From IMG/VR virus record IMGVR_UViG_3300046804_003948, positions 1-42,981 of that record: a stretch of 42,981 nt of DNA. The stretch is one strand, 5' to 3'. This document shows positions 106 through 10,939 of this stretch, piece by piece. The translations under genes and the position numbers were made by a program. Within the stretch, counting starts at the first letter, position 1, and each line of letters begins with the position of its first letter. This DNA is from a virus. The notes below the pieces were generated by a model. It made no database searches, was not told the DNA's origin, and saw only the letters and a program-made list of their open reading frames with translations.

Positions 106-1326
106 TTACCTACTAATTTCTTCCCAATCCATAGATGCAAAAACATTAGCACCTGCGGCGTCACTGGAACAAATAAGTGACAACTCGTAAGGAGTTTTAC
201 TCAATCCATCTCTTTCGAGTTGGAATTTAAATAGTGCTTCTTTAAGAATATCTACTGGTGTTGAACCTTGCTGGGAAGAATTGAAAAATCCTGATGCTAA
301 AACTCTTCCACCACTATAAGTTGCTGCATCAATTTTATATTCTATTGCACTATCTGTTCCTGCGCTTACCCAACTTCCCCCTGAAGAAGTTCCACTTGCT
401 CTTACTTGCCAATTATAATTTGCATTATTTGTAGATCCTAAAAGTGAAAGTGCAGTGAGAATTACAATTGCATCCAATCTATCTGGTGATGATTTGAGAC
501 GGAGTGAAACTAAATTATAATATATTCCTGCTGTAGTTAAAGATACCGGAGATGTAACTGCCGTTCCAGCTGCTTGTTGCAAACCACGAAGTTCATAACC
601 ACCTTCTGAAATTACAGAAGAACAAACTTGTTTTAGTATGCTTGCACTAGTTGTAATTCCAGTATTTGCAATTTCAAGTCTCAAAGGTAATGATGCTGTT
701 GTAATATAAGTGGATTGAACTTGATTTGCGTGGTGAAATGAATGGCAATGAATAAATTGTCCGTCAATCACAAAACCAACTCGGACTGTTCCTAATCCTA
801 ACCATTCAATATCAGTCCACATAATTTGACCTTTAGATGGGTCAAGTGTATAACCAGAGGGACCTGTTCCATCCAACTTATCATATAACCAAGATGATTG
901 AGGAACTCTGGTTTCGGAAGTAATTCCTGTTACTAAACTTCTTTCTACAAAATTTACAGTAGATCCATCGACTTCAAAATAAATTCCATTATCTGTACCA
1001 AAGTATCCTACTCTCTGACGAAGATTTGTTTTTGGAGCATTCATTACAAATGTATTAATTATTTGTAATGATTTTCCTGGTTGATATGAAAATACTTTTG
1101 TTGTTTCTCTGATAACTGAATCACCACTTGTAGTTCCAATACCAATATTGATTAAACCTTGAGTCGTAACAAACCCAACAGTTGAACCTGTTCCTACAAT
1201 CAAACTTGTCCAAAGATTATTATCTCTATATCTGTGAGAAGAATCAAAAAGTGTTAATGGAGTTGAAGTTCTTAATCGACCAAAAGCATCAAATTGTTCT
1301 TGACTTGGTTTATATAAATGTGACAT
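106..1326 (-). CDS. Virion structural protein with FGRLRTSTP-type N terminus (406 aa)
   Basis: I recognise the N-terminal pattern (FGRLRTSTPLTLFDS, residues about 15-29) from structural proteins of marine T4-like and other marine phages; the exact role is unknown. The protein is rich in Ser, Thr and Gly and contains the GIGTT motif common to fibre and baseplate proteins in this window. No membrane segment or enzyme motif is visible. The ATG at 1326 shares its A with the TAA stop of the upstream gene (TAATG), so the two are probably translationally coupled. Its place after the gp67-like core gene suggests a capsid-surface or appendage protein, which is inference. Confidence 0.6.
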   Translation of the reverse strand: MSHLYKPSQEQFDAFGRLRTSTPLTLFDSSHRYRDNNLWTSLIVGTGSTVGFVTTQGLINIGIGTTSGDSVIRETTKVFSYQPGKSLQIINTFVMNAPKTNLRQRVGYFGTDNGIYFEVDGSTVNFVERSLVTGITSETRVPQSSWLYDKLDGTGPSGYTLDPSKGQIMWTDIEWLGLGTVRVGFVIDGQFIHCHSFHHANQVQSTYITTASLPLRLEIANTGITTSASILKQVCSSVISEGGYELRGLQQAAGTAVTSPVSLTTAGIYYNLVSLRLKSSPDRLDAIVILTALSLLGSTNNANYNWQVRASGTSSGGSWVSAGTDSAIEYKIDAATYSGGRVLASGFFNSSQQGSTPVDILKEALFKFQLERDGLSKTPYELSLICSSDAAGANVFASMDWEEISR

Positions 1327-2030
1327 TATACTACCCTCCAGGAATTATTTTTCCAAATAAATGTAAGTGAACCATAATCATAAGCAAGAATCGCACGATC
1401 TCTACCGTCAATCAAATCGGATCCTGTTGGTAGAATTGTAATATATCTATTAGTCCCCTTTGAAGCTTCTCCTAATTCATCCTTAACGATAAAAACTTTT
1501 CCCTCTCTATCTGCTTTTGGTAAAGTAATAGATACTGCACCTGCATAATTCACACCAATATAATAATCATTAGTAGTTGCAGAATAGGAGGAAGAGGTTA
1601 CAGAAGTCAGTGGCAAATCCATATATGCCAAGTTAACTTCTCCACCCCCACCATGAGCATGAACATCACGCATCAATTGCCAAACAAGATTTTTTAATTC
1701 TTGTATTTCTCTTGATGATGGATTCTCTAAAGACTCAGAAACCTCTCTTGGTTTTTCTGTCTTTTTGATGAATTGTAGATATTGATCTACATAACTTAAC
1801 TCTGCAGATTCTTCAATTTCATCACCACTATCTTCTTCATCTTCATCCTCATCTTCATCTGAAGTATCTGGGGATTCTTTCTTTTCTTTTTTTGGTTTAG
1901 CAGATTCTAATAGATTCTCTAAAAAGTTTTCACCAAAAAAGTCGTCACCAAGAAGAGAATTAAATTCTTCTTCCTGCTTCTTTTTACCTTCAGATATTAT
2001 GTTAAAGAAAGAGGATAGATCATCGGACAT
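1326..2030 (-). CDS. Chimeric protein: acidic scaffold-like N half, fibre-type C-terminal domain (234 aa)
   Basis: Residues about 1-110 are low-complexity and highly charged, with a Lys-rich patch followed by an Asp/Glu run at about 58-75 (DEDEDEDEED), like prohead core or scaffold proteins. A Gly stretch at about residue 127 (HGGGG) then leads into a C-terminal beta-rich domain (about 135-234) with the pattern V-x-I-T-L-P, G-K-V-F-I-V-K-D, I-T-I and I-D-G-R. I associate that pattern with phage fibre and appendage ends. The gene occupies the position of T4 gene 68 (prohead core), directly after the gp67-like gene. The spacing is a TGA stop, two bases, then ATG, with a purine-rich binding site inside the end of gp67. 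Function is unknown; it could be a core protein, a decoration protein or both. Confidence 0.6.
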   Translation of the reverse strand: MSDDLSSFFNIISEGKKKQEEEFNSLLGDDFFGENFLENLLESAKPKKEKKESPDTSDEDEDEDEEDSGDEIEESAELSYVDQYLQFIKKTEKPREVSESLENPSSREIQELKNLVWQLMRDVHAHGGGGEVNLAYMDLPLTSVTSSSYSATTNDYYIGVNYAGAVSITLPKADREGKVFIVKDELGEASKGTNRYITILPTGSDLIDGRDRAILAYDYGSLTFIWKNNSWRVV

Positions 2031-6905: not shown

Positions 6906-7136
6906 TTACCAGTCAGGATATTCCCATTTATCAAAGACTTTGGTAGTCATTCTACTGGTAATTATTCTCTTAATCGTACAGTCCTTACACTCGTAAGAAT
7001 ATGAAGATGGAACAGGACCTCTATCCTTTCTTGTTCTGTAGAATCCCTCTATTAAATTCTTTATTTCACCACAAGTTCTACACTTTCTATCGTTTAGAAG
7101 TAAGTGTCCAAGTCTAATCTGTCCGTCTAAATCCAT
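6906..7136 (-). CDS. Small zinc-ribbon protein (76 aa)
   Basis: Two Cys pairs (C19-x2-C22 and C50-x2-C53) form a likely four-Cys zinc site, with FYRTRKDRG and SYSYECKDC between and around them. Similar small proteins next to terminase genes occur in cyanophages; some resemble the zinc-binding half of HNH-type proteins, but no HNH motif is present. The ATG at 7136 is chosen over a GTG at 7154 because its A overlaps the gp17 TAA stop (TAATG), the pattern repeated elsewhere in the window, and the GTG would need a longer overlap. A GGGAG site lies 11 bases upstream. Function unknown; nucleic-acid binding is plausible. Confidence 0.75.
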   Translation of the reverse strand: MDLDGQIRLGHLLLNDRKCRTCGEIKNLIEGFYRTRKDRGPVPSSYSYECKDCTIKRIITSRMTTKVFDKWEYPDW

Positions 7137-8785
7137 TAGGATAGATACTCCCACATATATGCCCTATCACCATATTCATCAGTGTACCAACGATCTCCAT
7201 CAGAATCTACAAAACTACTGTTGTCAAATCCATCAACAATAAATCCAAATGGTGCCATATCTTGTTCAATCTGATTCTTTTGTTCTTCGTAGATTCTCTT
7301 ACGAACGTCCTGATCGGTAAGTTCTTTGAAATAATCTTGTGCAACTAACCAAGCATAAATTACCAGACACATAGCCAGGTCATCATTACAACCCTCCTCT
7401 GCTTCAAAGGAGTTATGCTTCTGAATAAAAGTTGTAAGTTCTGCAATTATCTCATAGTCATTCAAGAGAAGTTTATTCTCCTCAATCATCGTCTTAAGAT
7501 TGAGACATCCAACTTTCTTTACTGTCTTGGACATCTTAACTCCCAGTTGAGTTTTCTTACCAGAAAATCCCTGACCAACAATCTGTCCTGCTCTACCTCT
7601 CATAGAGCACATGAGGAGATTGTTGTATTCTAAATCATAGTGAATAATACTTGCTACCTGATCTCCAACATCATTTACTTCACATAAGATGTAAGAGTCA
7701 TTATAGTTTCTTGCAACATCTACAATAATGCTTGGGAAAAGCATCGGTTTAATTTCGTTGTTTCGATACTTTGCTACAACTTTATGTGGAAATGTTGTAA
7801 TATCAATTACGGTAAATGCTGAGTAGTCATTACCAACACCACGAGCAACGTCAACGGTTACAACATAATCATGATTATCTTTAACATCTTCATAAACATC
7901 TAGACCAGCACTTCGTTTAAGTGGATGATCATATACTAAGCTCTTAAGTTTGCTTGGTGCAATCAGAGTATCAACAGATCCTAAGAATTCGCATTCAAAC
8001 TCAACTTTAAATTGCTGTTCTGAGGTGTTTGCAATTGTTTGTGCTTTCCATGCATCATCTCTTCCCGGAACCTCACTCCAGTGAACGTCGGTTGGAATAT
8101 ATTCATTCTTTCTCTTTTCCGCATCATGCCACATACGGTAGAAGTGATTCATACCGTGAGGAGTAGAAACGATGATTACCTTCGTGCTCTTACCAGAAGT
8201 AATAGTTGGATAAACGGATGCAAAGAAAGAATCTGCAATATGATTTGGAACGAACGCAAATTCATCCAAGAAGAGAATATTAAATGACATTCCTCGGACG
8301 GCAGAAGCAGACGTTGATGCTGCCAGAATCTTAGAACCATTCTCCAGTTCTAATGAACCCTTATTCCAAGAGATGATACCCTGCTGCATCCACTTTGGTA
8401 AGTTCTCATAAGCAGTCTGTAACCTATCTAGGAGTTCCCTGGCGGTTGCTGCTTTGTTTGCCAGGATACCGATGTTAACATTATCGTTAAACACGGCATA
8501 ATGGAGCAGGAAGGATACAACAGTGGTTGATTTACCAGTCTGTCGTGGCATCTTACAGATATTAAATCTGTGATTATGGAAGTTATTAACTAACTTCTCC
8601 TGGAAGGGATACATCTGAAAAGGTTGTAATCCCTTATCAAGAGTAACAATCTTTACATAATTCTTAGCAAAGTAAACCGGATCTTCCTTACATTTTACAA
8701 ACTCAAGAATCTGATCTTGAGTAAATTCAATAGGAGTATTGGCTTTCTTTAGTAGTGGATTACCAAGATAAACATCATTTGACAT
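7136..8785 (-). CDS. 17: Terminase large subunit gp17 (packaging ATPase-nuclease)
   Basis: The 549-residue protein (T4: 610) is the motor that drives DNA into the prohead and cuts the concatemer. Motifs in order are Walker A RQTGKST (81-87, Lys85), Walker B ILFLDE (170-175, Asp174, Glu175) and the coupling motif STPHG (207-211). The RNase H-like nuclease acidic residues are near Asp312 (VTVDVARG), Glu369 (LCEVND) and Asp468/469 (CNDDLAM), so both domains look intact. It acts with the small subunit gp16 and portal gp20. Unlike T4, it is separated from gp16 by a 1.7-kb gene. Confidence 0.96.
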   Translation of the reverse strand: MSNDVYLGNPLLKKANTPIEFTQDQILEFVKCKEDPVYFAKNYVKIVTLDKGLQPFQMYPFQEKLVNNFHNHRFNICKMPRQTGKSTTVVSFLLHYAVFNDNVNIGILANKAATARELLDRLQTAYENLPKWMQQGIISWNKGSLELENGSKILAASTSASAVRGMSFNILFLDEFAFVPNHIADSFFASVYPTITSGKSTKVIIVSTPHGMNHFYRMWHDAEKRKNEYIPTDVHWSEVPGRDDAWKAQTIANTSEQQFKVEFECEFLGSVDTLIAPSKLKSLVYDHPLKRSAGLDVYEDVKDNHDYVVTVDVARGVGNDYSAFTVIDITTFPHKVVAKYRNNEIKPMLFPSIIVDVARNYNDSYILCEVNDVGDQVASIIHYDLEYNNLLMCSMRGRAGQIVGQGFSGKKTQLGVKMSKTVKKVGCLNLKTMIEENKLLLNDYEIIAELTTFIQKHNSFEAEEGCNDDLAMCLVIYAWLVAQDYFKELTDQDVRKRIYEEQKNQIEQDMAPFGFIVDGFDNSSFVDSDGDRWYTDEYGDRAYMWEYLS

Positions 8786-8800
8786 AACAAAAACCTACTT

Positions 8801-10498
8801 TTAATTACAGTTCCAACGACGAAGTGCTTTATTGATTCTTGAATCTGGATCTCTTGAAGTTTCTGCAGAAGTAAGTTTTGACTTCATACCTTTCATACGA
8901 CGGCAAAATGATGCACGACGATCTGCTCTCTTGCCAGTCGGATTCTTTTCTGTTACTGCTGTCTGAAGTTTTGAACCTGGATTCTCACGACGATATGCAT
9001 TAACTGCTTTCTGACTCAATCCGTCAGTTTTATCTTGACGATTAACCTTTTGCCAATCTTCTTCAATCTCAACTTCTTCTCCGATGTTCTTATTGTTCAG
9101 GAGATAATTCTTAGATCTCTGATCGATAACCTGAATCAGAGGCATTCCTGGTTGCAATCCTGATACGTTATACTGAAGAACTTGTGCTCCTGGATATATC
9201 TTTTGAATTTCGTCAGTTACATCCTTTCTTGATGGTGTATTAACTTGTGGGAAGAACATTCTTACCGAATAAGTTTTTCCTCTCCAAGAAAGAATAACTG
9301 CAATAATATTTCCATTTTCTGATTGAAGTTTAGTTGCTTCTTCCAATTCAACTTCTTCACTTACAGATTTCCATCCACCACCTTTTGACTTATACCACTT
9401 AGAAGCCCATCCATTTGCATATGCACTTGGATAAACATCAAATTTCTGCCTTGCAAGTGCCTTTGCTCTTGACCAAAGTTTTGTATTGGTTGGTTTATTT
9501 TCTTCTTCAAGTTGCTTTAATTGCTTTTCACCTTCAATCTGCTCTAAAATTTCATTAACCAATTTACTTTCACTGGTAGGAACACAATTTGGAACAATTT
9601 TCTTTCCCTTCTTTTTCATGCCAACTTGCTTGTATCCAGACCAACATGCCTCTTCCATTTCACCACTATCGATATAGTCAGCAGCACTGTCTAAGTAGTC
9701 TGCTGCTTTTGTGATTTTTGATTGAACCCATGCTTCAATATTTCCCTCACCTTTTCCTATTTTTTTCTGAAGTCTCTTAACAGCATTTGCTACTGTAGAT
9801 AACTCGGATCTTGCCATCGAATATTCATGATCTTTATTTTTGTTTTCCATTAACTTTGATGGGATAGAATACATATCCCAATACTTTGGACCATATGAAC
9901 ATTCCGATCTTAATTCATTCTTTTCACACTTCGGACAATATCTCTTTGCACCAGACATTACTGGTAAATCATTCATTTCCATTTCTTCTTTGATCTTATT
10001 AGATGACATGATGGGTTTTCCTCCTTTACCAGATCTATCAGCAACAGGATCTTTTGCTCTCTTCCTTCTCACTGCAGCAGCAATTTGATCTTTGGACATC
10101 TTTGCTGCTTTTTCCTTTGAAAGACACTTTGGTTTTGGTTCTCCAGGTTCACGAGCACACTTACCAATTCTTTCACCTTTAGTGTTATATCTATCCCATC
10201 CTCCACCACCAACACCACCTTCTCCACCTTTTCCAAACCAATCACGAAGATCTTCTTTTACATCTTTAAATTGTTTGTGGTGTTTTTTAGCATCTGATTC
10301 CATTTTCTTCAAACGAGTATAGTAATCTGGAATTTCATCTAAATGCTGAAGTGCAATATCCATTGCAAGTTCATGATCTTTTGTATGTTCATGTTCAATA
10401 GGTTCTCCCATGTCAAGTTGCTTTTGAATGAAAGAAACATCAAGACGATGCTTCTTAGCAATCTGTTCAACTGTTTTATGAGACTTCAGTTTATTCAT
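8801..10498 (-). CDS. Mosaic multi-domain protein between the terminase genes (565 aa)
   Basis: This hydrophilic, Lys-rich protein is built from short modules I know from other phage and giant-virus proteins, separated by low-complexity linkers. The modules are: a helical N-terminal piece with DHELAMDIALQHLDEIPDYY (41-60, DUF5661-like); a Gly-rich linker (89-100) followed by RYNTKGERIGKCAREPGEPK; a four-Cys region with CPKC (188-191); a helical DHEYSMARSEL...AADYLDSAADYIDS module (223-278); CWSGYKQVGMKKKGKK (285-300); LWSRAKALARQKF...SAYANGWASKWYK (341-370, DUF5872-like); and a C-terminal SFCRRMKGMKSK...DPDSRINKALRRWNC region (DUF6321-like). DUF numbers are from memory. It has its own late-promoter octamer. 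Function unknown; virion-internal or DNA-associated roles are inference. Confidence 0.7.
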   Translation of the reverse strand: MNKLKSHKTVEQIAKKHRLDVSFIQKQLDMGEPIEHEHTKDHELAMDIALQHLDEIPDYYTRLKKMESDAKKHHKQFKDVKEDLRDWFGKGGEGGVGGGGWDRYNTKGERIGKCAREPGEPKPKCLSKEKAAKMSKDQIAAAVRRKRAKDPVADRSGKGGKPIMSSNKIKEEMEMNDLPVMSGAKRYCPKCEKNELRSECSYGPKYWDMYSIPSKLMENKNKDHEYSMARSELSTVANAVKRLQKKIGKGEGNIEAWVQSKITKAADYLDSAADYIDSGEMEEACWSGYKQVGMKKKGKKIVPNCVPTSESKLVNEILEQIEGEKQLKQLEEENKPTNTKLWSRAKALARQKFDVYPSAYANGWASKWYKSKGGGWKSVSEEVELEEATKLQSENGNIIAVILSWRGKTYSVRMFFPQVNTPSRKDVTDEIQKIYPGAQVLQYNVSGLQPGMPLIQVIDQRSKNYLLNNKNIGEEVEIEEDWQKVNRQDKTDGLSQKAVNAYRRENPGSKLQTAVTEKNPTGKRADRRASFCRRMKGMKSKLTSAETSRDPDSRINKALRRWNCN

Positions 10499-10507
10499 TT
10501 TTTATTT

Positions 10508-10939
10508 TTATTTATCTTCCGGACCAAGTTGATTCTTCAATAACTTAGATAACTCTGCTGTGGATCCAACAAATAAAGCATTTGTAACATTTGTAGGACC
10601 TTTCACTTTCTGCTCATCGATATCTTTAAGCTTCTTTTGCAGATCAATTAATTTATCTGTAGCATCAGCAACATTTTTAATCAACTGTCCAGCAACCTCA
10701 TATGCCCTTGGCATTTCACTTTCTTGAGCAAGTTCTAAGATACCATTAAGTGCCTCCTGCCCCTTTTCAATAATAGAATAAAGATTACCTCTGGTGTACT
10801 CATAGTCCTTTTTCAAATCATCTGAGATTGAAGAAATAGATTCAATCTTTTTTTCAACAGTCTCTACTTCTGAAGATACAATATCTCCAGCAACATTAAA
10901 CGCATCATTTAAATTATCAAATTTTTTTGTCATTTTCAT
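10508..10939 (-). CDS. 16: Terminase small subunit gp16
   Basis: The 143-residue protein (T4 gp16: 164) is mostly helical by composition, with a central coiled-coil-like stretch (about 25-110), as in the T4 small terminase that forms rings and stimulates the gp17 ATPase. The gene follows gp15 and overlaps it by 4 bases (ATGA at 10939-10936), the expected T4 order. Identification rests on size, helical character, the VAGQLIKNVADATDKLIDLQ segment (about 82-101) and position. The gene is unusual in being separated from gp17. Confidence 0.8.
   Translation of the reverse strand: MKMTKKFDNLNDAFNVAGDIVSSEVETVEKKIESISSISDDLKKDYEYTRGNLYSIIEKGQEALNGILELAQESEMPRAYEVAGQLIKNVADATDKLIDLQKKLKDIDEQKVKGPTNVTNALFVGSTAELSKLLKNQLGPEDK
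10509..10516 (-). promoter_or_regulatory. Late promoter octamer GATAAATA (7/8) before the mosaic gene
   Basis: The minus strand reads GATAAATAAAAATAAA across the end of gp16; the octamer overlaps the gp16 stop codon. It sits 11 bases before the mosaic-protein start at 10498, so any transcript would have a very short leader or begin at the ATG. Confidence 0.4.

Follow-up and report, generated by a model that had tools for sequence, protein, structure and literature searches.

A shuffled multi-module gene between the terminase genes of T4-like phages, proposed as a precursor of internal head proteins

A gene between the two terminase genes of a marine T4-like phage encodes a string of small modules whose linkers are enriched in the cleavage motif of the T4 head protease gp21. 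We consider it fairly likely that the gene specifies the precursor ('polyprotein') of several internal head proteins, which would be directed into the prohead, released there by gp21 cleavage and would probably leave the head together with the DNA upon ejection.

A modular gene between terS and terL

The gene was found on a 42,981-bp fragment from IMG/VR (IMGVR_UViG_3300046804_003948), which was analysed at its full length and is called the window hereafter. It is an open reading frame of 565 codons with an ATG start (8801-10498, minus strand), separated by 9 bp from the terminase small subunit gene upstream (gp16, terS; 10508-10939, minus strand; phrog_445, E 2.6e-55) and by 15 bp from the large subunit gene downstream (gp17, terL; 7136-8785, minus strand; Terminase_6N/6C; phrog_2, E 7e-77). 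The original prediction, made from the letters alone, that a 1.7-kb gene separates the two terminase genes was thus borne out by Pfam and PHROGs. The gene for gp21 lies outside the contig. A small endonuclease VII-like ORF (phrog_4723; 6906-7154, minus strand) sits directly 3' of terL, as it does in S-SM2 and S-SZBM1. The gp16-gp17 interval is already known as a hypervariable hot spot of variable genes (PMC3037559), and it also houses fibres and nucleases. In the 216 loci bearing the gene family, the gene directly follows terS in 114 of 145 cases and directly precedes terL in 93 of 165. The fibre-like S-SM2_107 occupies this slot in S-SM2, whereas its window counterpart (1326-2030, minus strand), with a similar N-terminus (MSDDLSSFFNIISEGKKK against MSGDLGQFFSLIGKAKK), stands after gp20; this gene pair has moved.

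The gene had also been credited with its own late-promoter octamer, a claim that held in part. The octamer GATAAATA (10509-10516, minus strand) is present 11 nt upstream of the ATG, but it is one base off the T4 sequence TATAAATA and is made of the last codons of terS, while the remaining late-promoter-like octamers of the window lie 18-34 nt ahead of genes. The motif class looks real, since the coding (minus) strand of the window has 11 copies of ATAAATA and the opposite one none; its use at this gene is only a candidate. For seven of the 11 copies, an ORF starts within the next 45 nt, a placement like that of late promoters.

A tblastn search detected relatives in 515 GenBank phage records, mostly of Synechococcus, Prochlorococcus and Pelagibacter phages; in IMG/VR, relatives are encoded at no fewer than 142 loci. 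Only 2 of the 515 records reach a query coverage of 80% or more, which points to a mosaic family. In PHROGs, the protein gave a full-length match to the phrog_727 profile (residues 41-564, E 1.1e-59) and 16 further weaker or partial matches, each of unknown function. The S-SM2 ortholog, S-SM2_109, is annotated 'T4-LIKE GC: 119' and placed before gp17, hence the same family and locus. The family (T4-GC 119 / phrog_727) is therefore already known among cyanophages, with no function assigned. The novelty claimed for the gene is not undone by its relatives, which do carry it at this place but are annotated as hypothetical or merely as 'virion protein'.

The six modules initially quoted were all found, in the order stated and joined by Gly- and Glu-rich linkers. 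Among the Pfam families that had been suggested, DUF5661 (PF18905; residues 11-68, E 2.2e-13, 50.8 bits against a curated cut-off of 27) and DUF6321 (PF19846; residues 488-562, E 5.7e-15, 56.1 bits against 28.5) were confirmed, and DUF5872 was dropped, as it gave no Pfam match at E≤1. We denote the modules A (DUF5661), B (LRDWFGK..GW..C..PG...C), C+D (CPxC plus SMARSEL/AADY), E (CWxGYK...C), F (SAYASG/SAYANG), G (beta-beta-alpha-beta) and H (DUF6321, the last module in the window protein). Module sharing with other phages was confirmed as well: relatives carry the same modules, mostly in the gp16-gp17 slot, in differing order and number, so that modules are shuffled, lost and added. Some relatives hold modules absent from the window protein (CxxGYYYC, KPGQP, KYKKSIDC and, in S-SM2, DUF192).

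Cleavage motifs and targeting leaders

During T4 head maturation, gp21 cleaves head proteins after the Glu of a short motif (PMC9026906, PMC5694885). We scored this motif as [LIVMF]xE (hydrophobic-x-Glu, PhixE; a slash marks the known or putative cut after Glu) in the window protein and in 125 non-redundant homologs. At the sequence level, the window protein shows candidate sites at residues 82, 171, 283, 332, 387 and 480, delimiting seven units, all on the minus strand. Unit 1 (residues 1-82; 10253-10498) holds the DUF5661 module and ends at VKE82/D. Unit 2 (83-171; 9986-10252; pI 10.0) holds the LRDWFGK...GW...CAREPGEPKPKC...RRKR module and ends at IKE171/E. Unit 3 (172-283; 9650-9985) combines a zinc-ribbon-like CPKC part with a SMARSEL/AADYLDSAADY helical part and ends at MEE283/A, and unit 4 (284-332; 9503-9649), the CWSGYKQVG...NCVP module with a Glu-rich linker, ends at LEE332/E. 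Unit 5 (333-387; 9338-9502) holds the LWSRAK...SAYANGWASKWYK module and ends at LEE387/A; unit 6 (388-480; 9059-9337) is module G, recognised by AF2 and hhalign, and ends at IEE480/D; unit 7 (481-565; 8804-9058; pI 10.8) is the DUF6321 module. The whole protein is basic (pI 9.4), as T4-type internal head proteins are, with units 2, 5 and 7 at 9.4-10.8 and units 3 and 6 acidic (5.3 and 6.5).

AF2 predicts local order in a bead-on-string architecture with a mean pLDDT of 55.6, at which PDB matches of the whole fold are meaningless and were discarded. The predicted linkers with pLDDT below 50 span residues 76-98, 149-182, 333-392 and 448-494, and five of the six candidate sites lie in or beside such stretches. 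Modelled alone, module G is a beta-beta-alpha-beta fold (mean pLDDT 76.8) with no PDB match below E 0.19; in BFVD it matched only cyanophage relatives, an S-SCSM1 'Virion protein' among them.

Across the homologs, linkers contain 311 motifs against 170 in shuffles and module bodies 182 against 194, that is, no enrichment in the bodies; this ratio is descriptive and not a probability, because the linkers are related by descent and any significance is overstated. Of the 26 distinct kinds of junction between modules, 25 have the motif in most of their linkers. Upstream flanks carry it far above their residue-shuffled counterparts for modules B (67/78 against 18), E (97/104 against 41), F (73/90 against 27), H (69/87 against 42), A (18/24 against 5) and G (33/33 against 14). 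Directly upstream of module G, PhixE/A is found in 33 of 33 cases, independent of the preceding module. The strongest point is this retention of the motif at each shuffled junction, since the flanking modules differ. No motif separates C from D, and the two are hence counted as one unit. A few motifs inside window modules (LDE55, VTE517) count against the cleavage model. The same motif is seen at the T4 cleavage position of five cyanophage gp23s (LLTE/A, FLAE/A, ILTE/A, FLSE/A, MIAE/Q). The gp23 N-arm that follows this site is copied in small proteins, for example as GATGFTGAAAPEGPVAGYDPLM (L084:11285-11713, L246:7342-8235, L250:43121-43306); the second and third of these, S-CREM2 gp160 and S-SCSM1 gp97, are virion-positive.

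T4 internal proteins bear a 10-residue capsid targeting sequence (CTS) that is removed by a gp21 cut (PMC9026906, PMC5694885); in the T4 record, IPII and IPIII begin MKTYQEFIAE/A. A pattern derived from T4, [KRQ][TSN][FY]..F[ILMFVT].E, matched 140 times among 7286 locus ORFs, against 2-3 times in shuffles. The matches comprise the T4 internal proteins, a cyanophage mini-protein family (MKSFKQFISE/S...), linkers of the polyprotein family and one stray; all but one of those that are not N-terminal fall in linkers that directly precede the final module of a family protein (such as EGKTFFQFMIE/A and EQKTFSTFISE/A). In the window protein itself, a full CTS is missing both from the N-terminus (MNKLKSHKTVEQIAKKH) and from the interior, and the pattern matches nothing else in the window.

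In relatives, the modules themselves stand on such leaders. S-SZBM1 gp192 consists of the CTS MKTFKQYITE/A, a short linker and DUF6321, and the domain of the MKSFKQFISE/S mini-proteins is homologous to window module G (hhalign E 6e-9). One polyprotein relative (locus L120) starts with the CTS MKSLNLFINE/G. Proteins of the S-SM2_108 type combine an N-terminal CTS, a gp23 N-arm copy, a second CTS (KTFEEFRE/S, KTFGQFQE/G) and the KYKKSIDC module. In the gp16-gp17 slot of S-SZBM1, S-SZBM1_194 carries an S-AdoMet lyase behind the internal CTS ITYREFIAE/G. A DUF3008-like stretch occurs at the N-terminus of that protein (L247:17253-19376), and another in the virion-labelled, 69-residue S-SCSM1 gp93 (L250:41626-41835), which ends RTFKEFLEYIE. 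We dropped the idea that polyprotein and CTS mini-gene are mutually exclusive homes of module G: they seemed to be so in the pooled loci, but not when loci were sampled by polyprotein only (p=0.12).

Relatives in virions

Virion mass spectrometry of related phages, a check that had been suggested with the prediction, places two relatives in published virion proteomes, and a third proteome does not report its slot proteins. Purified S-CREM2 virions contained gp136 and gp137, whose genes lie between terS and terL; gp137 was detected by 4 peptides only (4.1% coverage) (PMC10665884). This gp137 is made of modules G and H, with PLEE/A and SMNE/D at the boundaries that match VELEE/A and VEIEE/D of the window protein, and gp136 begins MQTFSMFFSE/D. 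The S-SCSM1 record gives the polyprotein gp29 the label 'virion protein', and the labels of this record closely track the mass spectrometry data (about 48 labels, where the paper has 45 proteins; PMC9602691); gp30, a CTS mini-protein, has no such label in the record. The slot proteins gp191, gp192 and gp194 are not reported in the virion proteome of S-SZBM1, in which gp139, containing the module E of window unit 4, is present (PMC9146016).

Among 216 S-CREM2 N-termini, four display a strict CTS (gp6 S-AdoMet lyase, gp13, gp136 and gp154 cytidylyltransferase), and all four proteins are in the virion, against 52 of the 216 overall (p=0.003). A broader pattern (17 ORFs, 8 in the virion, p=0.027) was judged too loose. 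Variant leaders are also virion-positive in S-CREM2 (gp14 kinase, VKRFDAFLTE/E; gp12, LRFASFMAE/A). CTS-like N-terminal stretches of S-CREM2 virion proteins map to L244:3837-5081 (gp6), L244:10579-12846 (gp14) and L244:7704-10313 (gp12); the last is annotated as Cas9, a doubtful name given that no Pfam match supports it. An NMNAT-like cytidylyltransferase of three cyanophages (L246:3608-4468, L250:38819-40048, L255:6390-7478) was found in all three virions and has a CTS-like leader in each: MKNFSSFLTE/A, MKSFLQFLKE/A (S-SCSM1) and MRFRQFIIE/A (S-SZBM1, PMC9146016).

From its position, the gene had been linked tentatively either with DNA packaging or with a product that is packaged alongside the DNA. 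Nothing ties the protein to terminase; co-packaging is well supported, because relatives are in virions, the linkers carry the gp21-type motif and the modules stand on CTS leaders.

Proposed function and alternatives

In the reading that we favour, some seven compact modules, of which three are strongly basic (pI 9.4-10.8), would be strung on disordered Glu-rich linkers, and the precursor would go into the prohead core. There the T4-type protease gp21 would cut every linker after hydrophobic-x-Glu; the freed modules would remain in the head alongside the DNA and then enter the host with it, where they may act like T4 internal proteins, in DNA binding, counter-defence or host takeover. T4 internal proteins are described as diverse defence proteins with only the CTS in common, one of which, IPI*, blocks a restriction enzyme (PMC3012670). 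S-AdoMet lyase was originally discovered in phage T3, as a means against restriction (PMC7877911). Here the lyase occurs on a CTS in S-CREM2 gp6 and behind an internal one in S-SZBM1_194, which leads us to propose head-packaged, injected effectors. Tentatively, the gene might be a 'cassette polyprotein', in which shuffled small effectors flanked by gp21 sites let one precursor carry many counter-defence effectors via the head to the next host.

The main rival is a scaffold-like component of the prohead core, comparable to T4 gp22, gp67 or gp68, which would receive many PhixE cuts and lose most of its pieces after a role in assembly. T4 core proteins are likewise cut to short fragments by gp21 (PMC5694885), and both the low coverage of S-CREM2 gp137 and the unseen slot proteins of S-SZBM1 are as expected if pieces exit. 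We nevertheless think this unlikely: the modules look like cargo, being compact, conserved, rich in Cys and subject to shuffling; slot enzymes (S-AdoMet lyase, DUF192) make no sense in a scaffold; and these phages possess a separate gp22. The virion detection and the predicted bead-on-string architecture would also suit an uncleaved structural or decoration protein of the head, neck or tail with linkers that are just flexible and Glu-rich, as would the fibre-like genes elsewhere in the slot (S-SCSM1_26, _28). Such a protein is improbable, since the order of residues in PhixE is enriched above linker composition, and not in module bodies, and homologous linkers hold full T4-like CTSs.

Least probable, in our estimate, is a non-virion protein with either an accessory role in packaging, through terminase, or a late role in the host, detected in virions by carry-over, which the S-CREM2 authors allow for highly expressed proteins (PMC10665884). 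The location of the gene, which most loci keep between the two terminase genes, fits this, but that interval is known to be hypervariable (PMC3037559) and also accommodates fibres and nucleases, and the cleavage-motif data and the same modules on CTS leaders speak against it. The terminase-accessory role was rejected, position being its sole support.

Internal proteins of the CTS type are already known in T4, and the multi-module precursor is probably a new arrangement of that mechanism. The relatives' modules resemble T4 IPI, IPII, IPIII and Alt in their leaders (MKTFKQYITE and MKSFKQFISE against MKTYQEFIAE), the PhixE motif, the small basic products expected from cleavage and, for two relatives, detection in virions. 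They differ in that several modules, unrelated in sequence to the T4 internal proteins, make up one precursor with a site per junction, and the window protein lacks a full CTS. Multiple gp21-type sites per chain also characterise T4 gp22, gp67 and gp68; the cyanophage modules, however, are folded, shuffled and Cys-rich, and in relatives include enzymes. The ejection-protein bolus of the giant phages phiKZ and SPN3US likewise consists of inner head proteins matured by a protease at Glu-directed motifs, with one mature chain and one propeptide per gene instead of the multi-product precursor proposed here. Our literature search, in which most subscription journals were outside the scope, returned no report of a cyanophage CTS or of a phage internal-protein polyprotein; on the DUFs of the protein it yielded a single paper, about an algal virus, that was of no help here.

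If the proposal is true, a prohead protease would release many head proteins from one precursor, a use that we did not find described in the literature searched. T4-type leaders would explain the recurrent virion enzymes of cyanophages (NMNAT-like cytidylyltransferase, S-AdoMet lyase, APH-like kinase) and would provide a sequence rule for finding injected effectors. A function would then be assigned to several DUFs and to a gene that ranks among the most widespread of those without one in marine T4-like phages.
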